A stretch of 37,628 nt of DNA from the NCBI GenBank assembly GCA_947458955.1, contig CANGZT010000008.1:1-37628 (forward strand), given 5' to 3'. Of this stretch, positions 13,913-21,139 are shown one piece after another. How positions within the stretch are numbered: the first letter of the stretch is position 1; each line of letters begins with the position of its first letter. The stretch comes from Flavobacteriia bacterium (GTDB taxonomy: Bacteria > Bacteroidota > Bacteroidia > Flavobacteriales_D > Crocinitomicaceae). The translations under genes were made by a program, and so were the position numbers. The notes under the pieces were generated by a model, which ran no database searches, had not been told where the DNA came from, and saw nothing but the letters and a program-made list of their open reading frames with translations.

Positions 13913-13946
13913 AAAAAAAGAGCGAAATGAAAATTTCGCTCTTTTT
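13913..13946. terminator. Bidirectional terminator between convergent glmS and phaC
   Basis: aaaaaaag agcgaaat-gaaa-atttcgct ctttttgttt: perfect GC-containing stem with flanking A and T tracts. Confidence 0.85.
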
Positions 13947-14004: not shown

Positions 14005-15060
14005 CTAGTCTCTTTCTTTCAGCCATTTAGTTACAGCCGGTGAAAGTTCTTTCTGTGATTTACCACCAACAAAAACACCAATATGCCCTCCTTCAAATTT
14101 GTAAATCGTCTTATCTTTTGTACCTACATAATCATTTAAAGGTGTTGTTGCAGTAGGAGGAACCAAGTGATCGTAAGTTGCATAGATATTAAGTAAAGGC
14201 ATAGTAAGATTTTTAAGGTCAACCTTTTTACCCCCCACTTCTAATTCACCTTTGATTAATTTATTTCCTTGGTATAAATCTTGCATAAATTGAAGGAAAC
14301 AAGCTCCAGCTTGATCTGGACTTGCATTGATCCATTTTTCCATGCGTAGGAAGTTTAACAATTTTGTTTTCTCTTCCATTGAATTGATAAGCCCTGTAGA
14401 TTTTTGGATTTTCATCATCGGCTTTAGCATTTCAAAACCATCATTTAAAAATGATCCCGGAACTAAACCATCAAATCCTTCAACTAACTTTTCAAAATCC
14501 ATATCCTTACTCCATCTGAACAATAATCCATCATTAACAGAAAAGTCAATAGGAGTAACATGTGTCACTAAATTTTTGATTTTTTCTGGGTAAAGTGAAG
14601 AATAAATCACGCTGAATGTACCACCTTGACAAATACTTAAAATATTGATTTTGTCAACTTTATTTTCTTTTCTAACGTAGTCTACACAATTGTTTATATA
14701 TCCGTTGATATAATCATCCATTGATAGGTATTTATCCATTTTAGTAGGATACCCCCAATCAATTAAATAAACATCTAGTCCTGCTTCTAATAAGTTTTTT
14801 ATGTAGCTTCTATCAGGTTGTAAATCTAGCATTTGATAGGTGTTTACAAGCGCATAAACAATTAAAACAGGAGTTTTATATGTAGCTTTAGTATCTCTAT
14901 TATATCGGTAAAGTTTTAATTTATCCTCATGGTATACTTCTGTTTTAGGTGTAGAAGCAATATCTACTTCCTGAATATCTTGAAGTAATTCCATTCCCTT
15001 AAGGAATTTTGAGGTATTATCAGAAAAATCTTTTAACATCGATAAATGAAAATCTTTCAT
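14005..15060 (-). CDS. phaC: Class III-type poly(3-hydroxyalkanoate) synthase, PhaC subunit
   Basis: 351 aa; lipase-like box SICQGG with Cys nucleophile, YLIDWGYP, VTPIDFS, DHLVPP (Asp) and GGHIGVFVG (His). Confidence 0.92.
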   Translation of the reverse strand: MKDFHLSMLKDFSDNTSKFLKGMELLQDIQEVDIASTPKTEVYHEDKLKLYRYNRDTKATYKTPVLIVYALVNTYQMLDLQPDRSYIKNLLEAGLDVYLIDWGYPTKMDKYLSMDDYINGYINNCVDYVRKENKVDKINILSICQGGTFSVIYSSLYPEKIKNLVTHVTPIDFSVNDGLLFRWSKDMDFEKLVEGFDGLVPGSFLNDGFEMLKPMMKIQKSTGLINSMEEKTKLLNFLRMEKWINASPDQAGACFLQFMQDLYQGNKLIKGELEVGGKKVDLKNLTMPLLNIYATYDHLVPPTATTPLNDYVGTKDKTIYKFEGGHIGVFVGGKSQKELSPAVTKWLKERD

Positions 15061-15079
15061 GTTTGAATTATTTTAAAAA

Positions 15080-15107
15080 AAAAGGGAAATGCTAACATTT
15101 CCCTTTT
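15080..15107 (-). terminator. Intra-operon intrinsic terminator/attenuator between phaE and phaC
   Basis: aaaagggaaatg-ctaa-catttccctttt; on the minus strand the 12-bp stem is followed by a T-run, upstream of the phaC ATG. Confidence 0.7.
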
Positions 15108-15124
15108 CAAGATTATAAAATGAA

Positions 15125-16468
15125 TTAAACTGTAGCAGCTTTTTTCGTTGTAGTTCTTGTAGTAGTTGTTTCAGTAGAAAGTTTATTTTCTAAAGTTTTA
15201 ACTGTTTTCTTTAAATCATGAATTGTCTTGTATAACTCATCCATTTCAGATTTAACTACTAATGGTAAAGACTCAATACGGTTCTCAAATTGTTTTTCTA
15301 AGTTTTTCTTAATCTCAAAAGACAAAGTTGTTAAGTCTGCTTTTAATTTAGAAAACTCTTCAGTTGAAAATAAATTTGTGTAGTGTTTCTCGTTAATATT
15401 AACCCACTCGTTGAAGAAAGGTTGGAAAGAAGTTGTCAATGTCGTTTCTTTCATTTTCTCAGTCAAGTAAGTAAACATATCTGTAGAAACATGTTGACCA
15501 GTCTTGTACAAATGATTTTGTAATTCATTTAATTTTAACTGGTAAGCAGCAGCTTTGTCAAAATTAATCATAGCTAATTCAACATTCTCTTTTTCTTTAG
15601 AAGGAGCAACTAATTTCATGATTGGAGAAAAAGTCTCAGTCAATGAAGTGTTGAATCCTTTAAAAGTTTCAGTGAATTTAGCGAAATCACCAGAAATCAT
15701 GTGTGGAAACTTATCAGTAAATAATTTCCAATATTCTTGAAAATCTTTATTTAAAGTAGTGTTGTTAGCAAAGAAATCTTTCACCATTTTCATATTACTT
15801 TCTAACATTGTATTCAAGTTAGTTGTAGGGAAAAATGAGCTGAATAATTCTTCAGTAACTTTCTTGTAGTTTGAAGGATCAAACATCTTTTTCATTCCTT
15901 CGAAAGAGAAGTCTTTCGTTTGAAAAGCTTGAAAAAATGGTTTGTAAAACTCTTGTAATTTGAAATACAAAGCGTTTGTATTCATCGCATTTTTAAATAA
16001 CTCTTGGTGAGTTGAACCTGGCATCATAGCGTTTAATGAATGCATTGTAGAGTTCAAAGTTTTATTCCAAGATTCAAATAAAGTGTTCCAAGTAGAATTT
16101 AAATCTAAAAAGTTTTGATTTGTCTCAGTTGTAGTTTTACCAAAGCTATTCAAAGTGTTGTACATTCCTAGGTTGAAATCAGCTGCTTTTTTGAAAGCAT
16201 CCAATTGTGCAGTATACATATTTTTAAAAAACTCTTCAGATTTTTCAAAAGTTTCGTTTACTTTATTCTCAGTTTTATGCTCAGTAGTTGTATTGTTGAA
16301 CATAGCCATTTGATTTTCCCACCAGTTTTTGTACACCTCAGTTGACTTTTCCATTGGATTTTCTGATTTCATTGCTTCTTGAAACTTGTTAGCAGTTTCA
16401 ACTAAAGAATTCATCGCTTTTTGTTGTGTTTCCATCACAGTTTCAAATAATTCTTTTGAATTGTTCAT
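15125..16468 (-). CDS. phaE: PhaE-like PHA synthase subunit / phasin-like protein
   Basis: Amphipathic helical protein directly upstream of a class III-sized PhaC; MNNSKELFETVMETQQKAMNSLVETANKFQEAM...; C-terminal coiled-coil ELYKTIHDLKKTVKTLENKLS. Confidence 0.75.
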   Translation of the reverse strand: MNNSKELFETVMETQQKAMNSLVETANKFQEAMKSENPMEKSTEVYKNWWENQMAMFNNTTTEHKTENKVNETFEKSEEFFKNMYTAQLDAFKKAADFNLGMYNTLNSFGKTTTETNQNFLDLNSTWNTLFESWNKTLNSTMHSLNAMMPGSTHQELFKNAMNTNALYFKLQEFYKPFFQAFQTKDFSFEGMKKMFDPSNYKKVTEELFSSFFPTTNLNTMLESNMKMVKDFFANNTTLNKDFQEYWKLFTDKFPHMISGDFAKFTETFKGFNTSLTETFSPIMKLVAPSKEKENVELAMINFDKAAAYQLKLNELQNHLYKTGQHVSTDMFTYLTEKMKETTLTTSFQPFFNEWVNINEKHYTNLFSTEEFSKLKADLTTLSFEIKKNLEKQFENRIESLPLVVKSEMDELYKTIHDLKKTVKTLENKLSTETTTTRTTTKKAATV

Positions 16469-16563
16469 ATTGTTTGAATTTTTATTTTTAAAGGTTACTA
16501 TGCAAATTTCGGCTAATTATTTTTATTAACCAAAATTTTTTTAATTAAAATAGTATTGTTTTC

Positions 16564-16581
16564 AACTATTCGCAAATAGTT
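16564..16581. promoter_or_regulatory. Perfect inverted repeat aactatt-cgca-aatagtt between phaB and phaE
   Basis: Direct inspection; no U-tract on the minus strand, so it could be an operator or RNA hairpin. Confidence 0.3.
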
Positions 16582-16586
16582 ATGAA

Positions 16587-17327
16587 CTACATATATAAGC
16601 CTCCGTTAATATTTAAACATTGACCTGTCATGTATGGTGCATTAACGAGATAAACTACACCTTCTGCGATATCATTTGGATCACCCAGTTTACCTACCGG
16701 TATTTTAGCAACAATTCCTTTTAAAACTTCTTCCGGCATTGCTCCAACCATTTCAGTTCCAATGAATCCAGGGCAGATGTTATTTACTGTAATTCCATAT
16801 CTTGCAGTCTCTAAAGCCAATGATTTACTAAAACCTATTAACCCAGCTTTAGCAGCGGCATAATTCGTTTGTCCAAAACCTCCAGATTGACCAATAACAG
16901 AACTGATATTAATAATTCTACCATATTTCCGTTCTACCATATCAGGAATTACTAACGAACACATATGAAATGCACTAGATAAATTGGTGTTTATTACCTC
17001 CTGCCACTCTGTTAAACTCATTTTTCGAAATGACCGATCTCTTGTTATACCAGCATTATTCACAAGGATATCAATCTTTCCAAGTTTTTCTTTTATAGAA
17101 GAAACCATTTGAATACAATCAGTGCTTTCAGCTATGTTTCCTTGAATAGTCATTGCTGAACCACCATTTTCCGTAATTTGTTTTACAATATTATTCGCGT
17201 GTGTCTCATTATGATTGTAATTTACTACGACATAATATCCTTCTTTTCCTAATGCTAATGAAATTGCTGCTCCAATGCCTCGAGAACCTCCGGTTACCAA
17301 AGCTACTTTTGTATTATCGTTCAACAT
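16587..17327 (-). CDS. phaB: Acetoacetyl-CoA reductase (SDR family)
   Basis: VALVTGGSRGIGAAI, NNAGITRDRSFRKM, YAAAKAGLIGFSKSLALE, NNICPGFIGTEMV; encoded with phaC/phaE. Confidence 0.88.
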   Translation of the reverse strand: MLNDNTKVALVTGGSRGIGAAISLALGKEGYYVVVNYNHNETHANNIVKQITENGGSAMTIQGNIAESTDCIQMVSSIKEKLGKIDILVNNAGITRDRSFRKMSLTEWQEVINTNLSSAFHMCSLVIPDMVERKYGRIINISSVIGQSGGFGQTNYAAAKAGLIGFSKSLALETARYGITVNNICPGFIGTEMVGAMPEEVLKGIVAKIPVGKLGDPNDIAEGVVYLVNAPYMTGQCLNINGGLYM

Positions 17328-17450
17328 AACTAATATTTTGAGAGTTAGGTACTAATTGTGAATTTTTGAAAAGATATGTATTTTTTTTCAATTTTGAATT
17401 GTTTTAGTTCTTGAATTTATTTTGTAAATTGGGCTTTTAAATAAATTTTT

Positions 17451-17852
17451 ATGATCAATATCGGTGATACATTTGAACATTCTTTTTCTTTTACTCAAGA
17501 AGATGTTGTTTTGTTTGCTAAAGTTACTGGAGACAATAATCCAGTACACTTAGATGAAGTTTATGCAGCAAATACGATCTTTAAAAGGCCAATTATTCAT
17601 GGTATGTTAGGAGCTACTGTTTTTTCCAAGGTGTTCGGTACTATGTTTCCTGGAGAAGGGACAATCTATTTGAATCAAAACTTACAGTTTCTTAGGCCTA
17701 TGTTAGTCGATACTAATTATATAGCGCAATTTGAAGTGATTGAAATTGATCGTGAAAAACACAGGGCAACTATTACAACGATTGTATTGAATGAGGAGGG
17801 GAAAAAAGTAGTTGATGGTAGTGCCATATTGATGCATTCTGAAAAGTTTTAA
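17451..17852 (+). CDS. phaJ: MaoC-like (R)-specific enoyl-CoA hydratase
   Basis: GDTFEHSFSFTQEDVVLFAKVTGDNNPVHLDEVYA...RPIIHGMLGA: hydratase-2 motif with D/H. Confidence 0.85.
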   Translation: MINIGDTFEHSFSFTQEDVVLFAKVTGDNNPVHLDEVYAANTIFKRPIIHGMLGATVFSKVFGTMFPGEGTIYLNQNLQFLRPMLVDTNYIAQFEVIEIDREKHRATITTIVLNEEGKKVVDGSAILMHSEKF

Positions 17853-17855
17853 TGA

Positions 17856-18647
17856 ATGATTGTAAAAACAAACGATAATAAAAACATTTATACAGAAATT
17901 TTAAATCATCATCAGAACCTACCCGTAGTAGTTTTGCTGAATGGTTTGTCACAAAGTACTGCTTCTTGGGGATTTATCACTCCTTTACTAAAAGAAAAGT
18001 ATACTGTTGTTTTGATGGATTTTATTTTTCAAGGAAATTCAGAGAAAGAGGGTGATTGGCGTGATTTTGATCAACATGCTGAGGATGTTGTTCATGTGTT
18101 AGATGCATATGGATTTCAAAAAGCGTCTTTAATAGGTTTATCTTATGGAAGTATAGTAGCTCAACATGTCGGTGTATTATTTCCAGAGCGCATAGATAAG
18201 TTGGTTTTACTTTCAACTTTCGCTCACAAAACACCATACTATGAGGCGATTGAGCTTTCGTGGAAGCGGTCTTTAGAAATTGGTGGTTATGGTTTGTTAT
18301 TAGATGTAATGCTTCCGTATGTTTTGAGTGATCATTATTTCAATAATCCAATTATTCCTATTGAATTATTGAAATCGATGCGTAAAGATGTTGTTGAGGC
18401 AAAAGCGTTAGATAAATTAATGACTGCCACTTTACACATGAAAGATTATCGAAAGGAATTGCCTAAGATCAAGGCTTTAACATTAGTTGTTCATGGAGGA
18501 AAAGATATGTTGTTTCCAGTTGATTTAGGCAAATCGGTATCTAAACATATAAATGATTCCAAATTTGTAGTTTTACCGGATGCTGGGCATACTCTTAATT
18601 TGGAAAATGTTCCTGAAGTTGTTAATTTAATTAAAGATTTTATATAA
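17856..18647 (+). CDS. Alpha/beta hydrolase
   Basis: LLNGLSQSTASW oxyanion region, GLSYGS nucleophile elbow, HGGKDMLFP, DAGHTLNLE. Confidence 0.88.
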   Translation: MIVKTNDNKNIYTEILNHHQNLPVVVLLNGLSQSTASWGFITPLLKEKYTVVLMDFIFQGNSEKEGDWRDFDQHAEDVVHVLDAYGFQKASLIGLSYGSIVAQHVGVLFPERIDKLVLLSTFAHKTPYYEAIELSWKRSLEIGGYGLLLDVMLPYVLSDHYFNNPIIPIELLKSMRKDVVEAKALDKLMTATLHMKDYRKELPKIKALTLVVHGGKDMLFPVDLGKSVSKHINDSKFVVLPDAGHTLNLENVPEVVNLIKDFI

Positions 18648-19415
18648 ATGAAAACAGTTCTAATAACAGGAAGTACAAGCGGTATAGGTTTAGGTATTGC
18701 CCGCGAATTTGCAAAAGCAGGCTACCAAATAGCTTTCAATGGTTTAGAGCCGAATGGACCTGAAATTGCTAGTCAAATAGGAGAGGAGTACGGTGTTAAA
18801 ACAGCTTTTTATGGGGCTGATTTGAGTAATTCTGTATCTATTCAAGATATGGTTTCAAATGCGTTGGATCATTTTGGTAAAATTGATGTTTTAATTAATA
18901 ATGCTGGTATTCAGTATGTTTCTCCGATAGAAGATTTCCCTATTGAGAAATGGGATGCTATTATTGCTGTGAATTTAAGCGCAGTCTTTCATACCTCTAA
19001 ATCAGTTTGGGAGAGTATGAAAAAAAATAAATTTGGACGAATCATAAACATTGCATCTGCTCATGGTTTAGTTGCATCTGAATTTAAGGTCGCTTATGTT
19101 TCTGCAAAACATGCTGTTGTTGGGATGACTAAAGTACTAGGCTTGGAAGGCGCTCCCTATGGAATTACGGTAAATGCGATTTGTCCAGGTTATGTTAAAA
19201 CACCATTGGTTGAAAAACAAATAGCTGAACAAGCTAAGGCACACGGTATATCAGAGGATGAGGTTGTTTCTAAGATTATGCTTCAAAAGCATGCAATAAA
19301 AGAGTTTGTTACTCCTGAAACATTAGGTAAACTTGCATTGTTTCTAGCTTCTGAAGAAGCATCGACAATGACAGGTACAGCATTACCTGTAGACGGAGGT
19401 TGGACAGCACAATAA
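18648..19415 (+). CDS. bdhA: 3-hydroxybutyrate dehydrogenase-like SDR
   Basis: VLITGSTSGIGLGIAREFAKAGY, NNAGIQYVSPIEDFPIEKWDAIIAVNLSAVFH, GRIINIASAHGLVASEFKVAYVSAKHAVVGMTK, NAICPGYVKTPLVEKQI, C-terminal GTALPVDGGWTAQ. Confidence 0.92.
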   Translation: MKTVLITGSTSGIGLGIAREFAKAGYQIAFNGLEPNGPEIASQIGEEYGVKTAFYGADLSNSVSIQDMVSNALDHFGKIDVLINNAGIQYVSPIEDFPIEKWDAIIAVNLSAVFHTSKSVWESMKKNKFGRIINIASAHGLVASEFKVAYVSAKHAVVGMTKVLGLEGAPYGITVNAICPGYVKTPLVEKQIAEQAKAHGISEDEVVSKIMLQKHAIKEFVTPETLGKLALFLASEEASTMTGTALPVDGGWTAQ

Positions 19416-19424
19416 AAATTTAGA

Positions 19425-20459
19425 ATGAAATTAAAAACGAAACACGTAGGACTTGCGTTACAAGGTGGTGGAGCACATGGTGCTTTTACTTGGGGGGTAC
19501 TTGATCGCCTTTTAGAAATAGAAGAGCTAGTAGCAGATGGTATCGTTGGTACGAGTGCTGGTGCGATCAATGCAGTGGTAACTGCATATGGATTACATAT
19601 AGGTGGAAAAGAAAAGGCGAAAGAATTACTCGACAAACTTTGGAAAGATATTGCATTGTCAGGAAATATTTTGTTTAAACCTTCTATGGTTGACTCAATG
19701 TTTTCAAATGGAGATTTATACAATACTCCTGGGTATATGATGTTTAACGCAATGTCTCAGTTTTTTTCTCCTTATCAGCTTAATCCAGCTAATATTAATC
19801 CGTTAAGACAAATATTAAATTCATTGGTTGATTTCGATGAATTGAGAAAGTACAATAAGAAAAAGCTTTTTATTTGTGCTACCAATGTAAAAACGAATAG
19901 AGCTAAAGTCTTTGCAAATGATGATATTACAGTAGATGCTGTTTTGGCTTCAACTTGTTTACCTTATCTTTTTCAAGCAGTAGAAATTGATGGAGAATAT
20001 TATTGGGATGGTGGTTATATGGGTAACCCTCCTTTGTTTCCATTGATTGAAAATACAGACATTAGTGATGTGTTACTTGTTAAAATAAATTCGATAAATA
20101 TCAAAGAGGTACCAACAAGTGCTAGAGATATTGAAGATCGAATAACAGAAATTTGTTTTAATTCTAGTTTAATTAATGAAATGAAATTGATTCATTATCG
20201 AAATGAACTAGTCAGAAGGGGTATTTCCTTAGAGGAAGATCGAAAACCAAGAGAGATATTTGTGCATTCTATTTCTGCCCATGAAGCGATTGGTCATTTG
20301 AAATATTCAAGTAAAATGAATACTTCTTGGGAATTTTTATTAGATCTAAAACAAAAAGGAAGAGAGTATGCAGAGAAATGGATTGTGAATGAATACGATC
20401 AGGTTGGTATAAAATCTTCATTTGATGTCGAAAAACATTTTTTCAATAAATTCAAATGA
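19425..20459 (+). CDS. Patatin-like phospholipase
   Basis: GLALQGGGAHGAFTWGVLDRLLE, GTSAGAINA (GxSxG), YYWDGGYMGNPPL (DGG); immediately follows bdhA. Confidence 0.92.
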   Translation: MKLKTKHVGLALQGGGAHGAFTWGVLDRLLEIEELVADGIVGTSAGAINAVVTAYGLHIGGKEKAKELLDKLWKDIALSGNILFKPSMVDSMFSNGDLYNTPGYMMFNAMSQFFSPYQLNPANINPLRQILNSLVDFDELRKYNKKKLFICATNVKTNRAKVFANDDITVDAVLASTCLPYLFQAVEIDGEYYWDGGYMGNPPLFPLIENTDISDVLLVKINSINIKEVPTSARDIEDRITEICFNSSLINEMKLIHYRNELVRRGISLEEDRKPREIFVHSISAHEAIGHLKYSSKMNTSWEFLLDLKQKGREYAEKWIVNEYDQVGIKSSFDVEKHFFNKFK

Positions 20460-21139
20460 GAAGAGGATTTAAAATAATAATCTGGAGTTTAATATCAATC
20501 GTATTATTTTTTGGAATTTATTTTTTATTTGCATTTTTATTAGGATCCATTAGTAGTGGTCAAATTATATCTCATAAGCCAAAAAAATATAACGTTTTAG
20601 TCTTGTCCAATGGAGTTCATACGGATATTGTAATGCCCGTAAAAAACGAATTGGTAAATTGGAAATATTATTTTCCAGTTTCAAATACCAGAACAAAACA
20701 AAATCACGATCAATGGATCTCTTTTGGTTGGGGAGATAAAGAGTTTTACTTAAATACTCCTACTTGGGCAGACCTTACTGTTGCAATTGCTTTGCGATCT
20801 GCAACAGGTTTAAGTAGTACCGCTTTACATGTAACATACAGAGATTCAGTTAACATTGATTCATCCAATTGTATTAAACTATACTTAACTAAAAAAGAGT
20901 ACAAAAACCTAAGGAATTTTATTTTTAATTCATTTCAAAAAACAAAAAAAAATAAGGCTCAATACATTCCTACAGATGCTGTATATGGAGATAATGATGC
21001 TTTTTATGAATCGACAGGAACCTATCATTTGTTTTATACTTGTAATACTTGGACAAACGATGCGTTAAAGTCTTGTAATCAGAAAGCATGTGTATGGACT
21101 CCGTTTGAATCTGGAATTTTTGGCATGTATGAAAAATGA
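20456..21139 (+). CDS. DUF2459/TIGR02117-like membrane-anchored protein, possible Cys hydrolase
   Basis: N-terminal TM; VLSNGVHTDIVMP, SFGWGDKEFYLNTPTWADL, STALHVTY, YHLFYTCNTWTNDALKSC; overlaps the patatin stop by 4 nt. Confidence 0.75.
   Translation: MRRGFKIIIWSLISIVLFFGIYFLFAFLLGSISSGQIISHKPKKYNVLVLSNGVHTDIVMPVKNELVNWKYYFPVSNTRTKQNHDQWISFGWGDKEFYLNTPTWADLTVAIALRSATGLSSTALHVTYRDSVNIDSSNCIKLYLTKKEYKNLRNFIFNSFQKTKKNKAQYIPTDAVYGDNDAFYESTGTYHLFYTCNTWTNDALKSCNQKACVWTPFESGIFGMYEK

Follow-up and report, generated by a model that had tools for sequence, protein, structure and literature searches.

A probable PHB storage-and-mobilisation module joining a class III synthase to a PhaZh1-type patatin in a freshwater relative of Fluviicola

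Introduction

The closest described systems to the locus reported here are the class III loci of rhizobial plasmids and haloarchaea and, in Haloferax mediterranei, the PhaZh1–BdhA pair. PhaZh1 (HFX_6464), which has a patatin domain, is reported to be a granule-associated PHA depolymerase encoded beside bdhA (HFX_6463) (PMC11205408; PMC4823750). Deleting phaZh1 in H. mediterranei did not significantly alter the mobilisation of PHA in vivo (PMC4823750). This haloarchaeal pair forms a cluster apart from the PhaJ–PhaR–PhaP–PhaE–PhaC genes of the same organism. Rhizobium sophoriradicis carries a BDH–patatin pair in the same order, with no annotated PHA synthase within 4 kb. PHB storage in the branch of the Bacteroidota considered here is hardly mentioned in the open-access papers that we found, and a literature search on patatins together with BDH and PHB depolymerase gave no result.

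We analysed a stretch of 37,628 nucleotides (the window) from a draft genome of a little-studied freshwater relative of Fluviicola, for which an original prediction had proposed a divergent cluster for PHB synthesis and turnover. The predicted PHA module is one divergent unit (14005–20459; Table 1). It belongs to the class III PHB loci, and its instructive trait is that a PhaZh1-type patatin and BDH lie within the same unit as the synthase. The module shares with the rhizobial and haloarchaeal loci the PhaC family (39–43% PhaC identity), the catalytic triad and the adjacent PhaE, whereas its PhaE has 447 aa against about 180–200 aa in the annotated class III loci of those groups that we examined, and its supply/degradation arm, unlike theirs, lies divergently beside the synthase genes. 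A BDH-type SDR directly followed by a patatin is common to the window and H. mediterranei (33% and 34% identity, respectively); however, the window's pair is joined to synthase genes, and its BDH is of the canonical bacterial type, unlike the H. mediterranei SDR. Identity to the R. sophoriradicis pair is 52% for BDH and about 47% for the patatin. The parts are known, and their combination in this bacterial group appears to be undescribed.

Gene content and organisation of the locus

An ORF check of the window recovered all eight genes of the proposed divergent cluster, with phaB, the PhaE gene and phaC on the minus strand and maoC to DUF2459 on the plus strand, at the predicted coordinates. 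Gaps of 3, 0, 9 and −4 bases lie between successive plus-strand genes, an operon-like layout. The last of them, encoding a DUF2459 protein (TIGR02117, 169 bits against a cut-off of 131), had been counted as part of the cluster. Among the loci compared it adjoins the module in the window's genus only, and in the sister genus it is not next to the block; because of this confinement we regard it as a mere neighbour and rejected it as a module member.

Table 1 Features of the predicted PHA module and its borders (positions in the window)
Feature	Position	Strand	Evidence
Likely two-way terminator, left module border	13915..13946	.	Near-perfect 14-pair palindrome in the convergent glmS/phaC gap
phaC, class III PHA synthase catalytic subunit, 351 aa	14005..15060	-	TIGR01836, triad, solved structures
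phaE, long-form class III partner subunit, 447 aa, predicted all-helical	15125..16468	-	PF09712
phaB-type acetoacetyl-CoA reductase (SDR)	16587..17327	-	TIGR01829, SDR motifs
Divergent intergenic region, 123 bases, presumed promoter region	17328..17450	.	Coordinates of the two arms
MaoC-type (R)-specific enoyl-CoA hydratase (PhaJ-like)	17451..17852	+	PF01575, hydratase-2 motif
Alpha/beta hydrolase; candidate oligomer hydrolase, esterase or thioesterase	17856..18647	+	PF00561, GLSYG (S96), D217, H245
bdhA, 3-hydroxybutyrate dehydrogenase (BDH)	18648..19415	+	TIGR01963, solved structures
Patatin-like protein, proposed PhaZh1-type PHB depolymerase	19425..20459	+	PF01734, S44 (GTSAG), D195 (DGG)

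Terminator-like sites number 3 in the window against 3.3 expected in shuffles, and the site at the left border is assigned by its place and its 14-pair stem alone. Alignment of relatives gave no clear conserved motif in the divergent gap; the Bacteroidota promoter consensus occurs twice in the window (4.2 expected) and nowhere in this gap, and a sigma-70 promoter scan of the window gave the same result as shuffles. An IS110/IS116-type transposase gene (PF01548, PF02371; 642–1682, plus strand) lies towards the window's left edge.

PhaC scores 452.8 bits against TIGR01836, above the curated class III cut-off of 365.3. The SICQGG nucleophile box and the Asp and His motifs of the original prediction are confirmed at residues 142–147 (SICQGG), 297 (DHLVP) and 324 (GGHI), and correspond to C144, D297 and H326. 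Alignment to class III synthases had been proposed as a way of refuting the prediction; the triad is intact and is invariant in 20 aligned class III PhaC proteins, including rhizobial and haloarchaeal ones, and the refutation fails. PhaC also matches the solved PhaC structures 9knj, 5hz2 and 5t6o, and its triad aligns with those of solved class I synthases. The product of the adjoining gene, PhaE, scores 81.8 against PF09712 (gathering threshold 25.7), a match also found in 21/21 relatives; these two family matches, the triad and the adjacency bear out the proposed class III PhaC–PhaE pair. Against NCBIfam TIGR01834 PhaE scores 53.3, below the cut-off of 154.95, which we read as divergence of the long PhaE, the cut-off being a naming threshold and not a property of the enzyme class. 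The PhaE sequence has no match in the PDB and its structure model is of low confidence (mean pLDDT 48.5). In a search for a phasin domain fused to PhaE, its N-terminal part reaches only E 0.26 against Phasin_2, and full-length PhaE shows weak Phasin/BMFP similarity in some relatives. We recognised no separate phasin or PhaR regulator among the ORFs and Pfam matches of the module. Two loci of other Bacteroidota (L012, 5721–7538; L023, 2930–4777) encode a protein of 605–615 residues between phaE and phaC, with no Pfam match.

The identities of the supply genes likewise agree with those first proposed. PhaB narrowly passes TIGR01829 (309.5 against 302.1) and scores 200 against NF042966 (cut-off 436); FabG is not separable from PhaB with certainty. 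Its SDR motifs (TGGSRGIG, NNAG, YAAAK) and the patatin motifs are intact, as the original prediction had reported. The hydratase has the full hydratase-2 motif (FAKVTGDNNPVHLDEVYA) in addition to its PF01575 match, and its best solved structures, 5cpg and 1iq6, are both (R)-specific enoyl-CoA hydratases, supporting a PhaJ type. BDH scores 351.1 against TIGR01963 (cut-off 307.05), with D-3-hydroxybutyrate dehydrogenases as its top structure matches. As first noted, the window contains no phaA. Two thiolases are encoded elsewhere in the draft genome it comes from, and about three in complete relatives, with or without PhaC (two to four per genome across those checked); the lack of phaA therefore poses no obstacle.

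Conservation, distribution and ancestry

In the window's genus the block stands between glmS and DUF2459–rmlA–ispA wherever contigs extend that far, except that one member (G012) is without the glmS flank. The sister genus (g9) keeps the phaC–phaE–phaB / maoC–abh–bdh–patatin block amid other genes. Retention of the block in two genera despite differing flanks argues for one functional unit. One relative (G108, locus L016) has the block without phaB and the alpha/beta hydrolase, and retains maoC, bdh and the patatin. One record, labelled Fluviicola sp. (Crocinitomicaceae), has a PhaC that groups with those of the sister genus.

Some records call for comment in their own right. Five loci (L006, L008, L009, L010 and L019) carry titles that misfit, such as Chryseobacterium gleum, Kuenenia and Planktophila, and their genes match those of the window's or the sister genus. 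A genome placed in family f93 (G1023; L237) has a contig that equals that of L004 in length and carries the module of the window's genus (PhaC 84%), probably by mis-binning or else by transfer. Two sister-genus drafts (G089 and G122; L062 and L063) have a second, class I-like PhaC of ~600 residues by a phaB homologue, either real or contamination.

PhaC is present in 11 of the 12 other genomes of the genus, in 22/200 genomes and 2/24 genera of the family, and in 19/399 genomes of the order, all from the same two genera, the window's and its sister. Among 396 sampled genomes of the class Bacteroidia, 39 have a class III PhaC above the cut-off; a phylum sample, drawn differently from the class sample, gave 8/396. 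The original prediction held that PHB modules are not typical of Bacteroidota, which stands for the order and does not for the class: the PhaC system is rare in the order and not foreign to the class. The class sample also contains a further group with a class I-like PhaC of about 550–640 residues, below the class III cut-off; this form, a second kind of PHA synthase among Bacteroidia, is the only one in more than 20 genomes.

In a maximum-likelihood bootstrap tree, 36 Bacteroidia PhaC proteins form one clade (97/93), inside which the window's genus and its sister genus form a clade of their own (100/98). Uniting all 37 Bacteroidia rows in one clade was not rejected (p-AU 0.36). This single clade speaks against recent gain from Proteobacteria; the horizontal origin from outside the phylum, for which a PhaC phylogeny had been proposed, is not seen, and recent transfer from that source is not supported by the tree. 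Vertical descent and transfer inside the class would fit the tree alike.

The patatin as a depolymerase candidate

The patatin, which matches PF01734 at 96.3 bits, gave only weak matches to other patatins in a sequence search of solved structures. It is 34% identical over about 310 residues to a patatin encoded on pHME505 of H. mediterranei ATCC 33500. The homology reaches well beyond the patatin domain, and the nucleophile GTS[AG]G (S44) and Asp DG (D195) motifs of the two proteins align. The pHME505 protein is encoded behind an SDR gene, whose product is 33% identical to the window's BDH, and from this gene order we take it to be PhaZh1, the record itself giving no name. In the window BDH ends 9 bases upstream of the patatin. 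The patatin is the best depolymerase candidate of the module, because it is a PhaZh1 homologue beyond the patatin domain and sits behind BDH; the original prediction had listed it, without giving it this weight. A plasmid search gave patatin homologues in rhizobia and other organisms, with identity reaching 49%. Haloarchaeal homologues stand directly behind an SDR gene in 3/3 regions examined, and the SDR/BDH–patatin order also occurs in Rhizobium and in the Bacteroidia families f90 and f97; several proteobacterial homologues have no adjoining BDH. In other Bacteroidia (L134, L135, L136, L137, L138 and L139) the patatin often adjoins a gene of 400–500 residues, and both such neighbours tested (L135, L138) are putative porins (PF14121).

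Patatin and PhaC co-occur. In the order, the patatin was found in 2/199 genomes, both with PhaC, and in 0/197 genomes lacking PhaC; in the family, 21 of the 22 PhaC-bearing genomes have it, with one of these genomes (G007) taken from the order search. A 74%-complete member of the genus (G005) has the patatin and no PhaC match, and a sister-genus genome without PhaC (G020) has no patatin. Outside the order, every one of the 14 genomes tested from f90, f97, f100 and f123, families with a higher-scoring PhaC type closely related to the window's, has the patatin; in several f90 and f97 genomes it stands beside BDH, the pair lying mostly away from phaC. Seven PhaC-bearing genomes from f15, f76, f85, f93 and f112 all lack it, as do four class genomes without PhaC. 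A Fisher test (2e-7) is a guide only: it takes no account of shared ancestry, the genomes had been selected, and the families were grouped after the result was seen. Since PhaC-bearing f76, f85, f112 and f15 lack it, some class III systems can do without the patatin.

Proposed function

The data directly show which genes are present and in what order, that their catalytic residues are intact, and that the genes are conserved and co-occur, and the locus is very probably a chromosomal PHB storage-and-mobilisation module. Polymer formation, the kind of monomer, a depolymerase function for the patatin, and timing and regulation are our inferences from these observations. Housekeeping thiolases elsewhere in the genome would provide acetoacetyl-CoA, which PhaB would reduce to (R)-3-hydroxybutyryl-CoA; the PhaJ-type hydratase would add (R)-3-hydroxyacyl-CoA from beta-oxidation or drain it back, and the PhaC–PhaE complex would polymerise it. 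Under carbon shortage the patatin-like protein may hydrolyse the granule to 3-hydroxybutyrate, which BdhA would oxidise to acetoacetate, as proposed for PhaZh1–BdhA of H. mediterranei. The original reading of one arm for synthesis and the other for supply and turnover is supported. The observation is confirmed as a whole and its interpretation is mostly upheld, with corrections on DUF2459, class-wide rarity, outside origin and the weight of the patatin.

The depolymerase of such a PHB module might instead be the alpha/beta hydrolase (17856–18647), in which case the patatin would act as a phospholipase or esterase associated with granules or membranes. The Ser–Asp–His set of the hydrolase is complete (S96, D217, H245); beside its PF00561 and 4q3l matches, the hydrolase weakly resembles a PHB depolymerase of known structure (8ynv) and the model NF050089 for intracellular depolymerases, and some patatin homologues stand without BDH. 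However, the models that the hydrolase matches best describe generic esterases and lactonases, with every score far below its cut-off; the G108 module lacks the hydrolase and keeps the patatin; and it is the patatin that has a functionally studied relative. We consider this assignment unlikely. Still less probable, in our estimate, is a synthase whose main product is a copolymer or short PHB, whether oligo- or complexed, in place of bulk PHB storage granules. The lack of a recognised separate phasin or PhaR in the module would fit such products, as would a PhaJ-type hydratase able to supply other (R)-3-hydroxyacyl-CoA. Against them, the unit holds both BDH and a dedicated depolymerase candidate, as fits a stored and re-used reserve, BDH points to 3-hydroxybutyrate as the main monomer, and PhaE is long and weakly phasin-similar in some relatives.

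A mis-binned contig, or recent gain of the block from Proteobacteria, would be in keeping with a host assembly that is a draft of 60% completeness and with the absence of PhaC from most genera of the family. We regard either as highly improbable, given that 11/12 other members of the genus have PhaC, several with the same glmS and rmlA flanks, that G+C is even along the whole window, and that PhaC lies within the Bacteroidia clade described above.

Implications

Tentatively, and with rather more doubt than confidence, we suggest that part of the class Bacteroidia may have inherited a PHB system of its own, with a long PhaE that doubles as phasin and a PhaZh1-type patatin that, with BdhA, serves as dedicated mobilisation machinery, all joined in one self-contained divergent module in this freshwater lineage. 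From the module, PHB storage would be expected in common lake Bacteroidota, and about 10% of the Bacteroidia genomes sampled are possible producers by virtue of a class III PhaC. With no significant effect seen in the Haloferax knock-out (PMC4823750), the module also offers a bacterial test of PhaZh1-type patatins as in vivo depolymerases.
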